Source: Bdellovibrionota bacterium (lineage in GTDB: Bacteria; Bdellovibrionota; Bdellovibrionia; Bdellovibrionales; Bdellovibrionaceae). From it: 42,224 nucleotides of DNA. Shown here piece after piece: positions 22,700-30,040 of the stretch; the stretch's first letter is position 1, and every line of letters starts with the position of its first letter. The translations under genes and the position numbers were made by a program. Location of the stretch: assembly GCA_963170155.1 (NCBI GenBank), contig CAUJGP010000037.1:89552-131775 (forward strand), given 5' to 3'. The notes below the pieces were generated by a model. That model was not told the DNA's origin. It did no database searches and saw only the letters and a list, made by a program, of their open reading frames with translations.

Positions 22700-24364
22700 A
22701 TGAAAACAATAAATGTTTTATTTGTTGAAGACTCACAAAAGAATCTGGACTTAGTGACGCAAAGATTGAAGCAAGGAGGTTTTGCTCTTAATTGCAAGTG
22801 CGTGGCAAGGTTGACGGATTTTTCTCTGTCTTTAAAGTTAAAATCCTGGGACGTAATTCTTTGCTCAGACTCTCTTGTGGAAATGAATCCTAGCATGGTA
22901 CTCGAATCATTAAGCAAGGCTCAATTGGATATTCCTGTTGTGATTTTGCACCAAGGGAAAAAAAAGGATATTGCCTTATCGTATCTGAGAGTGGGAGCTC
23001 AGGATTGCGTGAGCATGGAGTCATTGGATCAATTAGAGTTAGTTCTTCGGAGGGAGTTCCTGTCTTTAGAGGTTCGCCGTAAATTGAGCAAAGTGGAGTC
23101 GACGCTTCATATAACGGAAAAAGAGAGGTCTTTGCTCGTGGAGGCAGAGAAAATTGCGAGAGAAGAGGCTGAAAAACTCAGTCGAGAAGCGCAAAGAGCG
23201 AATCGAATGAAGGATGAATTTTTGGCGACGATTTCACATGAATTGAGAACCCCCTTGCACGCTATTTTAGGATGGATTGAACTTCTCAGAAATGATGATA
23301 GCGGTCATATTCGCTTTGAAGAGGGGCTGGATGTGATTTACCGCAACACTAAAATCCAGGTCAAACTCATTGATGAATTATTTGATCTGTCTCACTTGTC
23401 TGCCGGTCATGTTGAGTTGAATGATCAGCCTCTGAATTTCAATCAAATGATCGCTGAAGTTGTGGATGGTTTTAATAAGAGAATTCAAGCTAAAAACCTT
23501 CTGATACACGTGATGTGTGAAGTTGAAACCTTTGAGTTCCGAGGTGATAATCAGCGAATACAACAAGCTATTTATCATTTGATTGATAATTCAATTAAGT
23601 TCACTCCTTTTAAGGGAGAAATTTTTATTCGAGCATCGACAAAAGGTTCCGTCTTTGAGTTTTCTGTAGAAGACAGCGGAGAAGGTTTCGATACGAGTTT
23701 TCAACCATTTATTTTCGATAAATTTCGCCAAGAGGATTCCAGATCCAATCGCGTTCACGGTGGTTTGGGAATTGGATTGGGGATTGTTCGTGAAATCATA
23801 GAAGCTCATGGTGGACAAGTGTTTGCAGCCAGTCCAGGGAAGGGTAAGGGAGCGACATTTACGCTCCAACTTCCAAAAAATAAATTTCAGTTGCGGAGTA
23901 CGCCCTCTATTGTATTGGCGGAACCCGCCGCCACCATGGGCATGCCCATTGCAAAAAATAAAACCCCGGGTAAAGTTCTCAATGGGGTTTCTGTTCTTGT
24001 GATCGATGACGCTCAAGATTCTTGTTTGATCGCTAAAATGATCTTAGAAAAATCAGGAGCTCGCGTTGATTGTGCCAACTCTGCTGCTCAAGCCCTTGAA
24101 CGATTGAACACTCAGCGGCCCGATGTTATTTTTTGTGATATTAACATGCCCGAAATGGATGGTTACGAGTTTATTAAAATTTTGCGATCTCGCCAATCAA
24201 AGCCTTCAGATTATATTCCTGCGGCTGCTTTTACAGCTCATCTGGGAGAAGACAGTTACCAACGCTCTATTGAAAGTGGTTATGACGAGCACCTCTCCAA
24301 ACCTTTAGAAATGCGCCGGCTTGTCAGCACGGCCGCTAAACTTTGTAATCGAGATATTGATTAA
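22700..24364 (+). CDS. Cytosolic hybrid histidine kinase (REC - HisKA - HATPase - REC)
   Basis: The protein has 554 residues and no membrane segment. Residues 4-120 form a receiver fold with the acidic pair E10-D11, but the phospho-acceptor position is Ser56 (DVILCSD; Asp57 is one residue late) and the conserved Thr and Lys are missing, so this domain is probably degenerate. A coiled coil (about 125-170) leads to HisKA with His180 in ISHELRTPLHAIL. The ATPase domain has the N-box Asn297, DSGEG (325-329) and GGLGIGLG (354-361). The C-terminal receiver (429-550) is canonical: DD at 436-437, Asp480 in FCDINMPEMDG, Lys534 in SKPLEM. The protein should autophosphorylate and pass phosphate to its own receiver; no output protein is next to it. 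Confidence 0.93.
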   Translation: MKTINVLFVEDSQKNLDLVTQRLKQGGFALNCKCVARLTDFSLSLKLKSWDVILCSDSLVEMNPSMVLESLSKAQLDIPVVILHQGKKKDIALSYLRVGAQDCVSMESLDQLELVLRREFLSLEVRRKLSKVESTLHITEKERSLLVEAEKIAREEAEKLSREAQRANRMKDEFLATISHELRTPLHAILGWIELLRNDDSGHIRFEEGLDVIYRNTKIQVKLIDELFDLSHLSAGHVELNDQPLNFNQMIAEVVDGFNKRIQAKNLLIHVMCEVETFEFRGDNQRIQQAIYHLIDNSIKFTPFKGEIFIRASTKGSVFEFSVEDSGEGFDTSFQPFIFDKFRQEDSRSNRVHGGLGIGLGIVREIIEAHGGQVFAASPGKGKGATFTLQLPKNKFQLRSTPSIVLAEPAATMGMPIAKNKTPGKVLNGVSVLVIDDAQDSCLIAKMILEKSGARVDCANSAAQALERLNTQRPDVIFCDINMPEMDGYEFIKILRSRQSKPSDYIPAAAFTAHLGEDSYQRSIESGYDEHLSKPLEMRRLVSTAAKLCNRDID

Positions 24365-24718: not shown

Positions 24719-25207
24719 ATGACATTATTGGGATTGAAAACATTTAAAAAACTAAACTTGATCCAAGTTCTTTTTGGTTTATCTGTTGCAATGTTTATTT
24801 TTGCGAAGGGTGTGGAAGTCAAAGCTCATGGTGAGGATAAGCCCGGACCTCATGGAGGATTCATTCAGATGCCTGGAGCGTTTCATACAGAGGTGGTCGC
24901 TGAGGGAGATCATCGTCTAAAAGTTTATTTGTTGGATATGAACTGGGAGAATCCCTCCACCAAGGATTCTTCATTGGAGGTCAAGCTTCAATTAGGAAAA
25001 AAGACGACGTCTTTTAAATGTGAAATGAGTGAAAACTTTTATTCATGCACTCTTCCAAAAGGAAACAATTTAAAAAAAGGAAAGCTAGAAGTTCAAGCGC
25101 AAAGAGAAGGGGTTAAAGGCAGCGTGGCTGCTTATACTTTGCCTCTTCAGTGGAAAAAGGCGGAAAAGAGTAAAGAACACCAAGAGCACTCAGGACATCA
25201 TCATTAA
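24719..25207 (+). CDS. Periplasmic PHGG-motif, His-rich protein of an RND efflux operon
   Basis: ATG 24719 has AAGGAGAG 5 nt upstream; an in-frame ATG at 24647 is less likely. The 162-residue protein has a signal or anchor (LIQVLFGLSVAMFIFAKGV) followed by AHGEDKPGPHGGFIQ, a beta-rich domain (TEVVAEGDHRLKVYLLDM) and a His-rich end (HQEHSGHHH). His clusters at both ends suggest binding of a soft or borderline metal in the periplasm. The same PHGG domain recurs in the protein encoded just after the permease, so the two are likely related. Such a domain is sometimes seen at the N-terminus of CusB/CzcB-type adaptors, but here no hairpin or barrel adaptor part follows. It lies one base before the permease start. 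Confidence 0.75.
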   Translation: MTLLGLKTFKKLNLIQVLFGLSVAMFIFAKGVEVKAHGEDKPGPHGGFIQMPGAFHTEVVAEGDHRLKVYLLDMNWENPSTKDSSLEVKLQLGKKTTSFKCEMSENFYSCTLPKGNNLKKGKLEVQAQREGVKGSVAAYTLPLQWKKAEKSKEHQEHSGHHH

Positions 25208-25208
25208 G

Positions 25209-28200
25209 ATGCTAGATCGAATTATTCGGTTTTCATTAACCCATCGCCTTTTTGTTATCTCTTTGGGAATTCTGATGACGGCATACGGATTATGGACTGT
25301 TCGTCAAATGCCGATTGATGTCTTCCCTGATTTAAACAAACCTACCGTGAATATCATGACTGAGGCTCCGGGGATGGCTCCAGAAGAAGTTGAAACCCTT
25401 GTGACGCTTCCTCTGGAAACCACCTTGAATGGCTTGCCTGGAGTGGAGAGGGTTCGCTCTTCCACAGGGATTGGTCTTTCTGTCATTTATGTTGAGTTTG
25501 GTTGGAATACTGAAATCTATAGAAATCGACAACTCATCGCTGAAAAATTACAACTGGCTAAAGAAAAGCTACCTCAAGGAATCACTCCGGTCATGGGACC
25601 CATCGCTTCAATTATGGGTGAGATACAATTACTTGGAATTTCTTCTCCACAAAATGAAGTGAATCCATTAGATCTGAGGACTTTTGCGGATTGGACCGTG
25701 AGGCCTCGGCTCCTCGCGCTTCCTGGAGTTGCCCAAGTGGTGGCTATCGGCGGAGGCGTAAAACAATTTCAAATATTATTATCGGCTGAAAAGATTCAAA
25801 AGTTTCAATTATCGCTGAAAGACATTGAGGAATCATTATCAAAAATCAGTCTCAACACCACGGGTGGGTACATCGATTTGGATCAAAAAGAATTTTTGAT
25901 TCGTAATATCGGCACGATTCGATCCGAAGAGGATATTTTAAATTCAGTTGTGGGAAATCATTTAGGACGTCCTGTTTATGTCCGAGATATTGCAGAAGTC
26001 AAAGTGGGAGCTCAAGTCAAGCGAGGAGATGGAAGTGTTGGTGGAAAACCAGCTGTGATTTTGAGCATTCAAAAACAACCGGGTGCCAACACGGTGGAGC
26101 TAACGCAAAAGATTGAAAAAACTCTGGAAGAATTAGAGAAAGCTCTTCCTAAGGGCGCCGAGTTTCATAAGGATTTATTTAAACAAGCTCACTTTATTGA
26201 AGCCTCTATTGGGAATGTGAAAGAAGCTTTGCGAGATGGAACCTTTTTGGTTTTTATTGTGCTCTTTCTTTTTTTGATGAATATCAAAACCACGGTGATT
26301 ACATTAACCGCGATCCCCTTGTCTTTTTTAGCAACAGCGATCGTGTTCCACTTTTTTGGCCTCTCCGTGAACACGATGACTTTGGGTGGTTTAGCGGTGG
26401 CCATTGGTGAGTTGGTGGATGATGCCATCGTGGATGTGGAAAACGTCTTTCGGCGATTGCGAGAAAATCAAACTTTAGCTCGGCCTTTGCCCACCCTGCA
26501 GGTTGTTTACAGTGCTTCTTCTGAAGTTCGCAACTCCATTGTTTTTGCAACGATCATTGTTGTTCTGGTTTTTTTGCCTCTTTTTTATATGAGCGGCATT
26601 GAGGGGCGTTTATTCATTCCTCTTGGCCTGGCGTACATTATTTCTTTAATCGCCTCTTTACTGGTCTCTCTCACGATAACGCCTGTTTTGTGTTCTTTGT
26701 TGTTAGGGCGAGGGTCTTTGATGGCTTCGGAAGATGGGTTTTTTGTTAAAAAACTCAAAGAATGGGATCAGCGGTTTTTAGTTCGTTCGTTAAATCATCC
26801 GAAGATTGTTTTTTCTATAGCCATTATTCTTTTTGTGATGTCTTTAGCTCTGATCCCTTTTATGGGTCGGGATTTTCTGCCGAAATTTAATGAAGGCACG
26901 GCAACGATTAACATACTCCTTGCACCGGGAGTTTCTCTTGATGAATCGAACCGAGTGGGAACTCAAGCAGAAGAGTTGCTCTTGAGCGTATCAGAAGTTA
27001 AATCTGTGGCTCGGCGAACAGGACGAGCTGAGTTGGATGAGCATGCTGAAGGAGTCCACTACTCTGAAATCGATGTGGATTTCAAAAGTGAAGGTCGATC
27101 CCGAGAGATTGTATTAGCAGAAATAAGAGAAAAGCTAAACTCCATTTCCGGGGCTTTTGTCAATATTGGACAACCGATTTCTCATCGCTTGGATCATCTC
27201 TTGTCAGGAGTTCGAGCGCAACTAGCCATTAAGCTTTTTGGTCCTGATTTGAAAACTCTACGCATTAAAGCCTCAGAAATTTATCGAGCTCTGGAGGGCA
27301 CGCAGGGGCTCGTGGATTTGCAGATTGAGCAGCAAGTATTGATTCCTCAAATCAAGATCCAGTTACTGCGTGAAGATGCTGGCACGTATGGTATCGCGCC
27401 TGGTGAATTATCTGAAACCTTAGAAAAGGCATTGAATGGCGAAGTGATCGCTCAAATTTTGGATCAACAAAAAATATTTAATGTTTTCATGAGATTTGAT
27501 GACCGTTCGAGAGCTAATTTGGATCTCATTAAACAGACTGTTTTGAAAATCATGCCGGATGGTCAAAAAGTCACGTTAGAAAAAGTGGCTGATGTTTATG
27601 AATCAGAGGGTCCCAATCAAATTAATCGTGAAAACTCCCAACGGCGAATCATTATTTCCGCCAATGCCGTGGATAGAGACCTTGATGGTTTGGTGCGAGA
27701 GATGCAGCAAAAACTCAGTGAAAAAATTTCTATTCCCGAGGGTTATTACATTCAGTGGGGTGGACAATTTGAAAGTCAGCAATCGGCGACACGGCTTATT
27801 TTATTTCTTGGATTGCTCTCTCTGATCGGTGTTTTCGTAGTGCTGTTTGCACAGTTCAGATCTTCGTTTATTGCCTTTCAGATCATGTTGAATATTCCCA
27901 TGGCGTTTATTGGGAGTTTGATCGCTTTATTTTTGACAGAGCGAGTTTTTTCTATTGCCAGTATGGTCGCCTTTATCACTCTTTGTGGGATTGCCAGTCG
28001 CAATGGGATTATGATGATCTCGCACTATTTACATCTTATGAAATATGAAGGAGAGGGATTCACAAAAGAAATGGTGATTCGGGGTTCTTTGGAGCGATTA
28101 GTCCCCGTCTTGATGACGGCTTTAACGGCCATTCTCGGTTTGATTCCTCTCCTTTTGGCAAAAGGAGAACCTGGCAAAGAGATTCTTCACCCCGTGGCTA

Positions 28201-28328
28201 TTGTCATTGTGGGTGGATTGATCAGTTCCACATTGCTTGATATGTTTGTAACGCCGACTGTTTTTTATATTTTTGGTAGGAAGTCGGCGGAAGAGCATAT
28301 TAAAGCACAGGAGGTAGAGCTTGTGTGA
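25209..28328 (+). CDS. RND heavy-metal efflux permease (CusA/CzcA family)
   Basis: The protein has 1039 residues, the usual size, with the RND layout: one helix, large periplasmic loop, six helices, second loop, five helices. The fourth-helix motif is AIGELVDDAIVDVENVFRRL (398-417), which carries two adjacent Asp for proton relay and places it in the heavy-metal (HME) branch rather than the drug branch. Early FPDLNKPTVNIMTEAPGMAPEEVE and TPVLCSLLLG are typical. It should export a metal ion by proton antiport from periplasm or cytosol. The motif matches neither the CzcA nor the CusA textbook form exactly, so the metal cannot be assigned. Flanking genes are two PHGG proteins and a TolC-family channel. 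Confidence 0.93.
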   Translation: MLDRIIRFSLTHRLFVISLGILMTAYGLWTVRQMPIDVFPDLNKPTVNIMTEAPGMAPEEVETLVTLPLETTLNGLPGVERVRSSTGIGLSVIYVEFGWNTEIYRNRQLIAEKLQLAKEKLPQGITPVMGPIASIMGEIQLLGISSPQNEVNPLDLRTFADWTVRPRLLALPGVAQVVAIGGGVKQFQILLSAEKIQKFQLSLKDIEESLSKISLNTTGGYIDLDQKEFLIRNIGTIRSEEDILNSVVGNHLGRPVYVRDIAEVKVGAQVKRGDGSVGGKPAVILSIQKQPGANTVELTQKIEKTLEELEKALPKGAEFHKDLFKQAHFIEASIGNVKEALRDGTFLVFIVLFLFLMNIKTTVITLTAIPLSFLATAIVFHFFGLSVNTMTLGGLAVAIGELVDDAIVDVENVFRRLRENQTLARPLPTLQVVYSASSEVRNSIVFATIIVVLVFLPLFYMSGIEGRLFIPLGLAYIISLIASLLVSLTITPVLCSLLLGRGSLMASEDGFFVKKLKEWDQRFLVRSLNHPKIVFSIAIILFVMSLALIPFMGRDFLPKFNEGTATINILLAPGVSLDESNRVGTQAEELLLSVSEVKSVARRTGRAELDEHAEGVHYSEIDVDFKSEGRSREIVLAEIREKLNSISGAFVNIGQPISHRLDHLLSGVRAQLAIKLFGPDLKTLRIKASEIYRALEGTQGLVDLQIEQQVLIPQIKIQLLREDAGTYGIAPGELSETLEKALNGEVIAQILDQQKIFNVFMRFDDRSRANLDLIKQTVLKIMPDGQKVTLEKVADVYESEGPNQINRENSQRRIIISANAVDRDLDGLVREMQQKLSEKISIPEGYYIQWGGQFESQQSATRLILFLGLLSLIGVFVVLFAQFRSSFIAFQIMLNIPMAFIGSLIALFLTERVFSIASMVAFITLCGIASRNGIMMISHYLHLMKYEGEGFTKEMVIRGSLERLVPVLMTALTAILGLIPLLLAKGEPGKEILHPVAIVIVGGLISSTLLDMFVTPTVFYIFGRKSAEEHIKAQEVELV

Positions 28329-28361
28329 AATGTATTTAGAACGAGTTCGAGGAGGAATGTT

Positions 28362-28769
28362 GTGTTCATAAAAAAATGTTTGGTTTTATTGGCGATGGTG
28401 AGTTTTGCTTTTTTAAAGGGATTTGCTCATGAAGGGCATGATAAAATGCCGGGAGCATTATCAGCCCCCCATGGAGGGCAGGTGAAGGGAACAGATCACT
28501 TATACATTGAATTAATCTCCGATGCCGAAGGGATTAAATTATATCCCCTCACCCATGAAATGAAACCGATTCCTTTGGATCAGTTGAAATTAGAAGGAAC
28601 TTTTCGTCTTCCTAAAGGTAAAAAATCAGACACTTTGGTTTTAAAAAAGGGAAGTGATTATTTTGAAGCCAAGGTCCAGGCGAAGGGTTCTCACCGTTAT
28701 CAGGTGGATCTTAAAGTAACCTTTATGAAAGCCACAGATTCATTGAGCTTTAATGTGGAGCCTCAGTGA
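28362..28769 (+). CDS. Second periplasmic PHGG-motif protein of the efflux operon
   Basis: GTG 28362 has GGAGG 6 nt upstream. The 135-residue protein has a signal peptide (CLVLLAMVSFAFLKGFA) followed directly by HEGHDKMPGALSAPHGGQV, then TDHLYIELISDAEGIKLYPL and a beta-rich end. The order PHGG, E(L/V)(I/V), short gap, (I/L)K(L/V)Y is shared with the first gene of the operon, so both look like paralogues. N-terminal His residues suggest metal binding. The last 4 bp overlap the channel gene (GTGA). Function as metal chaperone, or as a stand-in for the missing adaptor, is inference. Confidence 0.75.
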   Translation: MFIKKCLVLLAMVSFAFLKGFAHEGHDKMPGALSAPHGGQVKGTDHLYIELISDAEGIKLYPLTHEMKPIPLDQLKLEGTFRLPKGKKSDTLVLKKGSDYFEAKVQAKGSHRYQVDLKVTFMKATDSLSFNVEPQ

Positions 28770-30040
28770 TCAGTGCGCTTATGTCAAAGTTATGGATCGT
28801 GGGACTCATGGTTGCAGTGGTCATTTCCGCTTGGGCGGATCATCCTAATGAGGGGAGTTTGGCGATAGAACAGCTCATTAAACATGCGGAGTCCAATAAT
28901 CTTGATTTAAAGCAAATTGAGTTTAATTTAAAAGCGGCTCAAGCAGATCTCTTTTCAAAACGGGGACGATACTATCCGCAATTTTCTCTGGAAGGGGGAT
29001 ATTTAACCTCCAGAGTGTCTCAAGAGAATCATTCGGGAGTTTTTTTATTTGGAAAAGCCGAATGGAATTTATTTCGAGGTGGTGCCGATGATGTTCAAAT
29101 CAAACAAACGGGTTTGAATCTTGATTTGGAAGAACTCAAAGCAAAAGCATTGAAGCTCAAAATAAAAAATGAAGTTTCAAAAGTGTATTATGAGATGCTC
29201 TTTATTTTGGAATCTATTGCTCTGAAAGAACGAGCCCTCTCGTTCAATGCGGAGCAGATGAAGTTAGCGGTTGCAAAAAGAAACTCCGGTTTTACTTCGC
29301 AAACAGATGTTCTGGAGTTTGAGTTGCGAGAATCAACCTTGCGATCAGATCTCTTGTTGCTTCAGCAAGATCGCGAGATCAAATCCAAAGAGCTGGCGCT
29401 CTTGTTGGGGAGTTCAACACCAGAGACTTTTTTTGCTATCAAGGGTCATCTTCATCGTTCATCTGTAAAACCGAATTTTTCTCAAATGTTAGAACAATTA
29501 CGGAAAAACAATAAAGAATTAAGGGAATCTGAACTTTTGGTAAAGACTCTTGACTACGATAAAAGAAGAGTGGTTGCTGATTTTCTTCCTCAGCTGGATC
29601 TTGAAGCGCAGTATGGTCGACTCGCCGAGGGAGAGCGTGTGAGCGATGGGAATCATAATTATTCGGTGATGTTGAAGCTCTCCATCCCTCTTTTTTCGGG
29701 GTTGGAGACTTATTATGCCCATCAATTTGTGCAGTCGACGTTGCAAGCCAGGCATTTGAAGAAAATCAAACAATCTCAGGATGTCGAGATTGAATTGGAA
29801 AAGACACTGAGTTCTATTCAAATTTTAAACCATCGATTGGACCTTGAAGAGAAAAACTTATCTCGTTCTGAAACTTATTATAAAATGACGCTTTCCGAAT
29901 ATCGTCGCGGGGTGAAAAATTCGCCGGATATGGTGGGAGCCACAGAACGGCTCTTAGAAGCTCGAATTCGAAACCTTGAGTATCGTCGTGATTTGGCTCT
30001 GAGTCTTCTAAAGGTTAAAGATCTGGTCGGAGAAGAATGA
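28766..30040 (+). CDS. TolC-family outer-membrane channel of the efflux operon
   Basis: The protein has 424 residues from GTG 28766 with a signal peptide ending near AWADHP. Long amphipathic helices alternate with beta segments in two similar halves: LEGGYLTSRVSQ ... FGKAEWNLFRGG in the first, FLPQLDLEAQYGR ... LKLSIPLFSGLE in the second. That twofold pattern and the conserved Pro/Phe-Gly positions are typical of OMF (CzcC/CusC/TolC) proteins, trimeric channels docking with RND pumps. Overlap with the upstream gene and shared strand place it in the pump operon. No lipobox is evident, unlike CusC. Confidence 0.88.
   Translation: MISALMSKLWIVGLMVAVVISAWADHPNEGSLAIEQLIKHAESNNLDLKQIEFNLKAAQADLFSKRGRYYPQFSLEGGYLTSRVSQENHSGVFLFGKAEWNLFRGGADDVQIKQTGLNLDLEELKAKALKLKIKNEVSKVYYEMLFILESIALKERALSFNAEQMKLAVAKRNSGFTSQTDVLEFELRESTLRSDLLLLQQDREIKSKELALLLGSSTPETFFAIKGHLHRSSVKPNFSQMLEQLRKNNKELRESELLVKTLDYDKRRVVADFLPQLDLEAQYGRLAEGERVSDGNHNYSVMLKLSIPLFSGLETYYAHQFVQSTLQARHLKKIKQSQDVEIELEKTLSSIQILNHRLDLEEKNLSRSETYYKMTLSEYRRGVKNSPDMVGATERLLEARIRNLEYRRDLALSLLKVKDLVGEE

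Follow-up and report, generated by a model that had tools for sequence, protein, structure and literature searches.

A putative adaptor-less HME-RND metal efflux operon, probably ancestral to Bdellovibrionota, with two predicted CrdA-fold periplasmic proteins

The periplasmic adaptor is held to be essential for the assembly and sealing of resistance-nodulation-division (RND) efflux pumps. Contact between the permease and the TolC-type channel has long been disputed, with deep docking, in which the two meet directly, set against a tip-to-tip arrangement bridged only by the adaptor, and BesA is a notable structural exception to the adaptor rule. In the window, a stretch of 42,224 nucleotides from a Bdellovibrionota bacterium of predatory type, we identified a four-gene cluster (24719-30040) encoding a heavy metal efflux (HME) RND permease, a TolC-family channel and two small proteins with a PHGG motif, PHGG1 and PHGG2. 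On balance, and with modest confidence, we read this cluster as an HME-RND metal efflux operon that lacks an adaptor and dates back to the ancestor of Bdellovibrionota, in which the small proteins would be metal binders of CrdA/CopC fold and the channel would meet the permease without a hairpin adaptor. In Planctomycetota, Bacteroidota and Pseudomonadota, permeases of this clade are accompanied by an HlyD-type adaptor, which is absent from the operon here and went undetected in the genome.

CrdAB-CzcBA (HP1326-1329) of Helicobacter pylori has CrdA as its secreted copper-binding component, and loss of crdA or czcA leads to copper sensitivity (PMC9182242, PMC12319023). The copper loop of CrdA is Met-rich (MxxMPGM) and contains no His (PMC9182242). 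In BesABC, an RND pump of Borrelia burgdorferi, the adaptor has no alpha-hairpin but keeps the remaining adaptor domains, and the genome offers no alternative adaptor that would suit (PMC3807786). A search of the open-access literature for adaptor-less RND pumps found only BesA, and no paper was found there on the adaptors of Bdellovibrio RND pumps. The features of the present locus are as follows.

24719-25207, + strand: PHGG1, 162 amino acids, a predicted exported beta-sandwich (open reading frame, AlphaFold model, fold match to CrdA).
24848-24859, + strand: PHGG motif of PHGG1, residues 44-47 (P44, G46 and G47 invariant in 11 homologues).
25209-28328, + strand: HME-RND permease of the CusA/CzcA family, 1039 amino acids (TIGR00914, PDB matches, tree, residues).
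27042-27197, + strand: histidines of the permease's periplasmic substrate cleft, H612 (codon 27042-27044), H659 (27183-27185) and H663 (27195-27197), invariant in 100/100 relatives.
28362-28769, + strand: PHGG2, 135 amino acids, a predicted exported beta-sandwich of CrdA-like fold (open reading frame, model, gene position in relatives).
28467-28478, + strand: PHGG motif of PHGG2, residues 36-39 (G38 and G39 invariant in 34 homologues).
28766-30040, + strand: TolC-family outer-membrane channel (OEP), 424 amino acids (PF02321, 151 bits).
29288-29308, + strand: first periplasmic tip of the channel, GFTSQTD (G175 in 70/70, D181 in 66/70; aligns with the SilC repeat tip).
29897-29929, + strand: second periplasmic tip of the channel, EYRRGVKNSPD (E378, G382 and K384 invariant in 70/70).

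The four genes lie on one strand in the order PHGG1, permease, PHGG2, channel. Gaps of 1 bp between PHGG1 and the permease and 33 bp between the permease and PHGG2, together with a 4-bp overlap of PHGG2 and the channel gene, leave no room for an adaptor gene. The permease scores 823 bits against the CusA/CzcA model TIGR00914, above the cut-off of 701, and its nearest solved structures are CusA, the best match in the PDB, and ZneA. The channel gene product passes the OEP family PF02321; a tripartite HME-RND system likewise has a TolC-family channel encoded together with its permease.

The genome that carries the operon is a 2.85 Mb draft in 37 contigs, with a completeness of 100% and a contamination of 0.49%. 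A profile built from the adaptors accompanying the same permease clade in other phyla (A3) found no match in it at E<=10; in a control, the same profile scored a held-out Variovorax adaptor at 490 bits. TIGR01730 (RND_mfp) gave no match above cut-off in this genome, the best matches below it being a 252-residue HlyD protein and a 198-residue protein adjoining a second HME-RND permease. HlyD_D23 (PF16576) matched only the 252-residue HlyD and, weakly, one lipoyl enzyme, and the lipoyl profile PF13533 recovered lipoyl enzymes or unrelated weak matches only. An adaptor such as defines a tripartite HME-RND system, with lipoyl, hairpin, beta-barrel and membrane-proximal domains, was found neither in the operon nor, as a full RND-type protein, in the genome. 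The sequence-only reading had seen no adaptor gene among the four tightly packed genes, and there is none nearby; its proposal that one might be encoded elsewhere was not borne out by the four profiles, since the genome-wide search for HlyD/CusB-family adaptors that it advised returned only an ATP-binding cassette (ABC) exporter HlyD and a protein confined to the membrane-proximal domain. None of the RND permease loci detected in this genome has a full adaptor next to it, and each adjoins or lies close to a channel gene. Channel genes, and no adaptor gene, adjoin the other RND permeases (L116, L117, L118 and L119; C2, C37:71520, C9 and C22).

Conservation across the phylum indicates that the arrangement is old. 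Among 79 genomes of the order, 38 carry a close permease, and in all 35 loci read for gene order a small GG-motif gene follows the permease, without any adaptor found in the operon. This pairing of a small gene after the permease with adaptor absence exceeds chance. A further set of 70 loci was drawn from named genomes, and the Bdellovibrionota loci with intact context in this set run permease-PHGG2-channel, without an adaptor. Planctomycetota relatives of the permease (42-51% identity) with upstream context nearly all have an adaptor gene just before it or one or two genes further, and relatives in Pseudomonadota and Bacteroidota (48-58% identity) also keep adaptors; the Methylorubrum record starts at the permease and was left out of this judgement. 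In a permease tree built by a quick method and rooted on a distant paralogue, the adaptor-less rows form one clade nested among adaptor-bearing rows (Shimodaira-Hasegawa-like approximate likelihood ratio test, SH-aLRT, 100), and adaptor presence or absence changes once on this tree against 22.6 times in shuffles. The adaptor-less state would thus most simply reflect a single ancient loss, retained since. The unusual pump architecture suspected from one sequence, with the same gene order now found throughout Bdellovibrionota and PHGG1 in a subset only, is far wider and older than that sequence could reveal.

We rejected an adaptor hidden further along the relatives' loci after reading a selection of neighbours of 250-930 residues, none of which is an adaptor. 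The sole adaptor-like match in Bdellovibrionota neighbourhoods of this permease, L078_10 (63 bits), lies several genes away, at a position that agrees with a TIGR01730 match at G062:C4:436300. One contig filed as a Cyclobacteriaceae metagenome-assembled genome (L234) carries a Bdellovibrio-type operon at 81% identity, probably a binning error or a recent transfer.

A second pump in the same genome is also reduced. On contig C17, an exported His-rich protein of 198 residues (L114:10915-11511; C17:22917-23510) has its gene flanked by those of a channel and a CzcA-type permease, and matches only the C-terminal, membrane-proximal domain of an adaptor, aligning to the last positions of the TIGR01730 model (246-316). 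Homologues occur in 37 of the 79 genomes of the order, and the gene order OEP-mini-CzcA, with a mini gene of ~156-219 residues, is kept in 20/20 loci examined, this one included. The metal pumps of Bdellovibrionota thus show a lineage trend towards adaptor reduction.

The two PHGG proteins matched no Pfam or NCBIfam family, and BLASTP between them gave nothing useful; they are related only through profiles and models. The profile of the PHGG2 family (34 rows) aligns with that of the PHGG1 family (11 rows) at an hhalign probability of 97.6, with the signal peptide making up part of the alignment. PHGG1 has a predicted mature N-terminus HGEDKPGPHGG, a conserved MPGAFHTE, two invariant Cys and a His-rich tail, and PHGG2 a predicted mature N-terminus HEGHD. 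In nearly all homologues of either protein a His directly follows the predicted signal-peptidase site, as placed by the AxA pattern rather than by SignalP. AlphaFold models (predicted local distance difference test, pLDDT, 86 for PHGG2 and 76 for PHGG1) both have H. pylori CrdA (9ll2/9ll4) as top Foldseek match in the PDB. For PHGG2 the match has a Foldseek E of 3.5e-4 and a VIA-align Z of 10.8 (2.3 A over 94 residues), and for PHGG1 an E of 1.3e-3 and a Z of 11.4 (2.3 A over 93 residues). Both predicted models show the eight-stranded Greek-key beta fold of CrdA; the P19/FtrA copper proteins score near CrdA, and the fold search leaves room for other beta-sandwich families. The His-free, Met-rich MxxMPGM loop of CrdA is not reproduced, since PHGG2 has no such loop, PHGG1 only MPGAFH, and both contain His. 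The family profiles found no match in the CrdA chains and no meaningful match in the PDB.

PHGG2-like proteins of ~125-130 residues are encoded directly after the permease in operons of Cupriavidus, Acidovorax, Comamonadaceae, Diaphorobacter and Variovorax that have a full adaptor (stand-alone copies at L158, L159, L161, L167 and L168). In Cupriavidus taiwanensis (L160:3794-5374) a CzcB-type adaptor includes a PHGG domain within its N-terminal region; the PHGG2 profile scores ~30-46 bits against this fused region and the stand-alone outgroup proteins. PHGG1 is present only in a subset of the adaptor-less clade, before the permease or after the channel. Since PHGG2 homologues coexist with full adaptors, the PHGG2-like proteins would predate the loss as ancestral accessories, rather than being an invention that replaced the adaptor. 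Of the earlier proposal that they replace or assist an adaptor, assistance fits these distributions and replacement is weakened by them, being conceivable for PHGG2 but superfluous; the resemblance between the two is borne out by the profile alignment and by the common best characterised match of their models. Both are most likely periplasmic copper-binding accessories, judging from the predicted fold, the N-terminal His and the gene context.

The conserved permease residues point to a His site. D404, D405 and E411 in transmembrane helix 4 (TM4), the acidic proton relay, are invariant in 100/100 relatives, with D404 aligning to CusA D405. The equally invariant H612, H659 and H663 are kept in relatives with and without an adaptor, and H663 aligns with CusA M672. 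The CusA three-Met cluster M573/M623/M672 is N568/Y618/H663 here, which places the permease outside the CusA subgroup (HME4, Cu+/Ag+). A Cu+-signature P1B ATPase lies close to 15/87 loci by a regular-expression test, and outgroup operons have copper genes nearby (CueR, multicopper oxidase, PCu(A)C and a four-helix copper protein).

Both ends of the proposed permease-channel junction have also changed. Across 70 channels of adaptor-less systems (mean column identity 0.25), the best-conserved sites include both periplasmic tips, G175 and D181 in the first and E378-Y-x-R-G382-x-K384-N-S-x-D in the second, with G175 as invariant as the three residues of the second tip. Adaptor-coupled channels of outgroups have an AGE-type second tip in place of the clade-specific EYxRGVKNSPD. 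Thirteen permease positions carry a residue that is fixed (>=90%) across the adaptor-less clade and rare (<=10%) among relatives with an adaptor, and 8 of them fall in the docking domains where 2.3 are expected (p=0.0004, with domain borders transferred approximately from AcrB numbering and alignment columns not fully independent). With other thresholds p was 0.003-0.007; Planctomycetota compared with the rest, as a control clade, showed no docking-domain excess. Relaxed constraint on the docking domains after the loss was not seen, but rather the opposite. No compensating elongation of channel or permease was seen (channels of 387-465 residues, compared with 388-420 in adaptor-bearing operons).

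We hypothesize that PHGG1 and PHGG2 are secreted, that their predicted mature N-terminal His and other His capture periplasmic copper, and that they hand it to the permease as CrdA, CusF and CopC are thought to do. The permease would be proton-driven through D404/D405/E411, with the ion moving through the site lined by H612/H659/H663. The ion would leave by the OEP channel, whose altered tip RGVKNSPD would meet the altered docking domains of the permease directly or with PHGG2 as a small spacer; the junction would contain no alpha-hairpin adaptor. Assembly, direct docking and substrate are inferences. More tentatively, we put forward as a real possibility a phylum-wide adaptor-free RND machine, in which permease and channel dock directly through co-evolved docking domains and the new tip, with the PHGG proteins as sole periplasmic helpers; together with the mini-adaptor CzcA pumps, hairpin adaptors would then have been dispensed with for much of Bdellovibrionota metal export.

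Several points weigh against the adaptor-less operon as we read it. Permease and channel show no visible extension that would span the periplasm, which leaves the geometry unexplained. The conserved channel tip could bind a partner other than the permease, the channel family may simply differ from that of the outgroups, and the docking-domain excess depends on approximate borders. The PHGG1 model is of only moderate confidence, and a DUF4426 protein (3uc2) ties with CrdA for PHGG2 in VIA-align. Of ten CusA relay and cluster methionines tested, only M391 is kept (1/10; residue list from PMC3637150). With the methionine relay almost absent, copper, our favoured substrate, rests on gene context and the CrdA-like fold, and other metals are possible.

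The changes in channel tip and docking domains would fit direct docking or a switch to a new partner alike, and such a partner might be PHGG2 itself, perhaps with PHGG1, as a small beta-sandwich ring that clamps the docking domains to the channel tip while also binding metal. PHGG2 is as widely retained as the channel and its gene lies between permease and channel; the C17 pump, which keeps only a small protein resembling the membrane-proximal domain, indicates that an adaptor can be pared down to a small domain. We nevertheless consider this replacement unlikely, because coexistence with full adaptors in outgroups argues against bridging as the ancestral role, the fold is one of soluble proteins that bind copper, the PHGG2 model has no helical hairpin, and the low conservation of the family outside H23, G38, G39 and E50 is poor for an interface.

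A true adaptor acting in trans, either too divergent for the profiles or shared from the 252-residue HlyD, is in our judgement quite unlikely. Adaptors are divergent, the genome is a draft, relatives often carry other RND adaptors, and the 252-residue protein has HlyD barrel-sandwich and HlyD_3 domains. However, the draft is complete by estimate and four profiles were negative for full RND-type adaptors in it. Relatives G041 and G020 carry the permease with no RND_mfp match at E<=1e-10, and in G047, a single contig with the permease, the only TIGR01730 match is a 250-residue ABC-type protein. The gene of the 252-residue HlyD accompanies a channel and an ABC transporter of its own, and the match of this protein to TIGR01730 stops short of the membrane-proximal domain. 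Highly doubtful is a permease that moves metal only from membrane or cytoplasm to the periplasm or the PHGG proteins, with the channel serving other exporters: a sealed duct is not guaranteed without an adaptor and RND relatives such as SecDF/MMPL function without channels, but almost every intact locus in the phylum has the channel gene after that of PHGG2, the two reading frames overlap here, and the tip motif was unseen in outgroup channels.

Other genes around these pumps were also recorded. Directly upstream of the cluster, on the same strand, lies a gene for a hybrid response regulator/histidine kinase (window 22700-24364). Where PHGG1 is missing, the gene before the permease (e.g., L092, L093, L094, L099, L107 and L109) encodes an exported His/Cys-rich protein of ~105-155 residues that often ends in ...GPFQPPRA/V and is possibly CzcI-like; a similar protein of 137 residues precedes the C17 pump. 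Just upstream of the cluster in several relatives is an exported His-rich protein of ~250 residues with the motifs HxHPEFDG and HxHP (L076:10448-11209, without a Pfam match, and L083, a 257-residue gene product before the permease). Pseudomonadota outgroups (L158:4305-4865, L161:3191-3823, L163 and L165) encode an exported protein of ~190-220 residues with a C-terminal hydrophobic stretch between the channel and adaptor genes, and the adaptors of Defluviicoccus and Tabrizicola carry a similar region as an N-terminal fusion.

If the adaptor-less reading holds, the two membrane parts of the textbook three-part pump may be enough for it to work, and a natural, ancient, phylum-wide pump of this kind makes the direct-docking question directly testable. 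The operon would offer a minimal system for the study of metal efflux, and suggests that small CrdA-like proteins can persist independently of an adaptor.

Compared with described systems, the operon would work like CrdAB-CzcBA or CusCFBA, yet falls outside the tripartite class as defined because an adaptor was tested for and not found. It shares with CrdAB-CzcBA a small secreted, here putatively metal-binding protein, of the fold modelled for PHGG1 and PHGG2, whose gene accompanies those of a TolC-like channel and an HME-RND permease. The H. pylori system includes the CzcB adaptor and a single CrdA, whereas here two CrdA-fold proteins occur without an adaptor; CrdA has its Met-rich loop and no His, and the PHGG proteins have conserved His. 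With CusCBA, SilCBA and CzcCBA it shares the permease family TIGR00914, the TM4 acidic residues, a TolC-family channel and the idea of a CusF-like helper, and differs in lacking a CusB/CzcB adaptor and in having N/Y/H for the CusA three-Met cluster, with a His triad conserved in its clade. The CzcB-type fused PHGG region and the stand-alone outgroup proteins resemble PHGG2 by profile match, the latter also in gene position, and differ in the presence of a full-length adaptor. BesABC is the nearest precedent. A BesA-type protein, with lipoyl, barrel and membrane-proximal domains kept and the hairpin gone, has no counterpart in the operon, where no adaptor gene remains, and the present system is a metal pump of another phylum.
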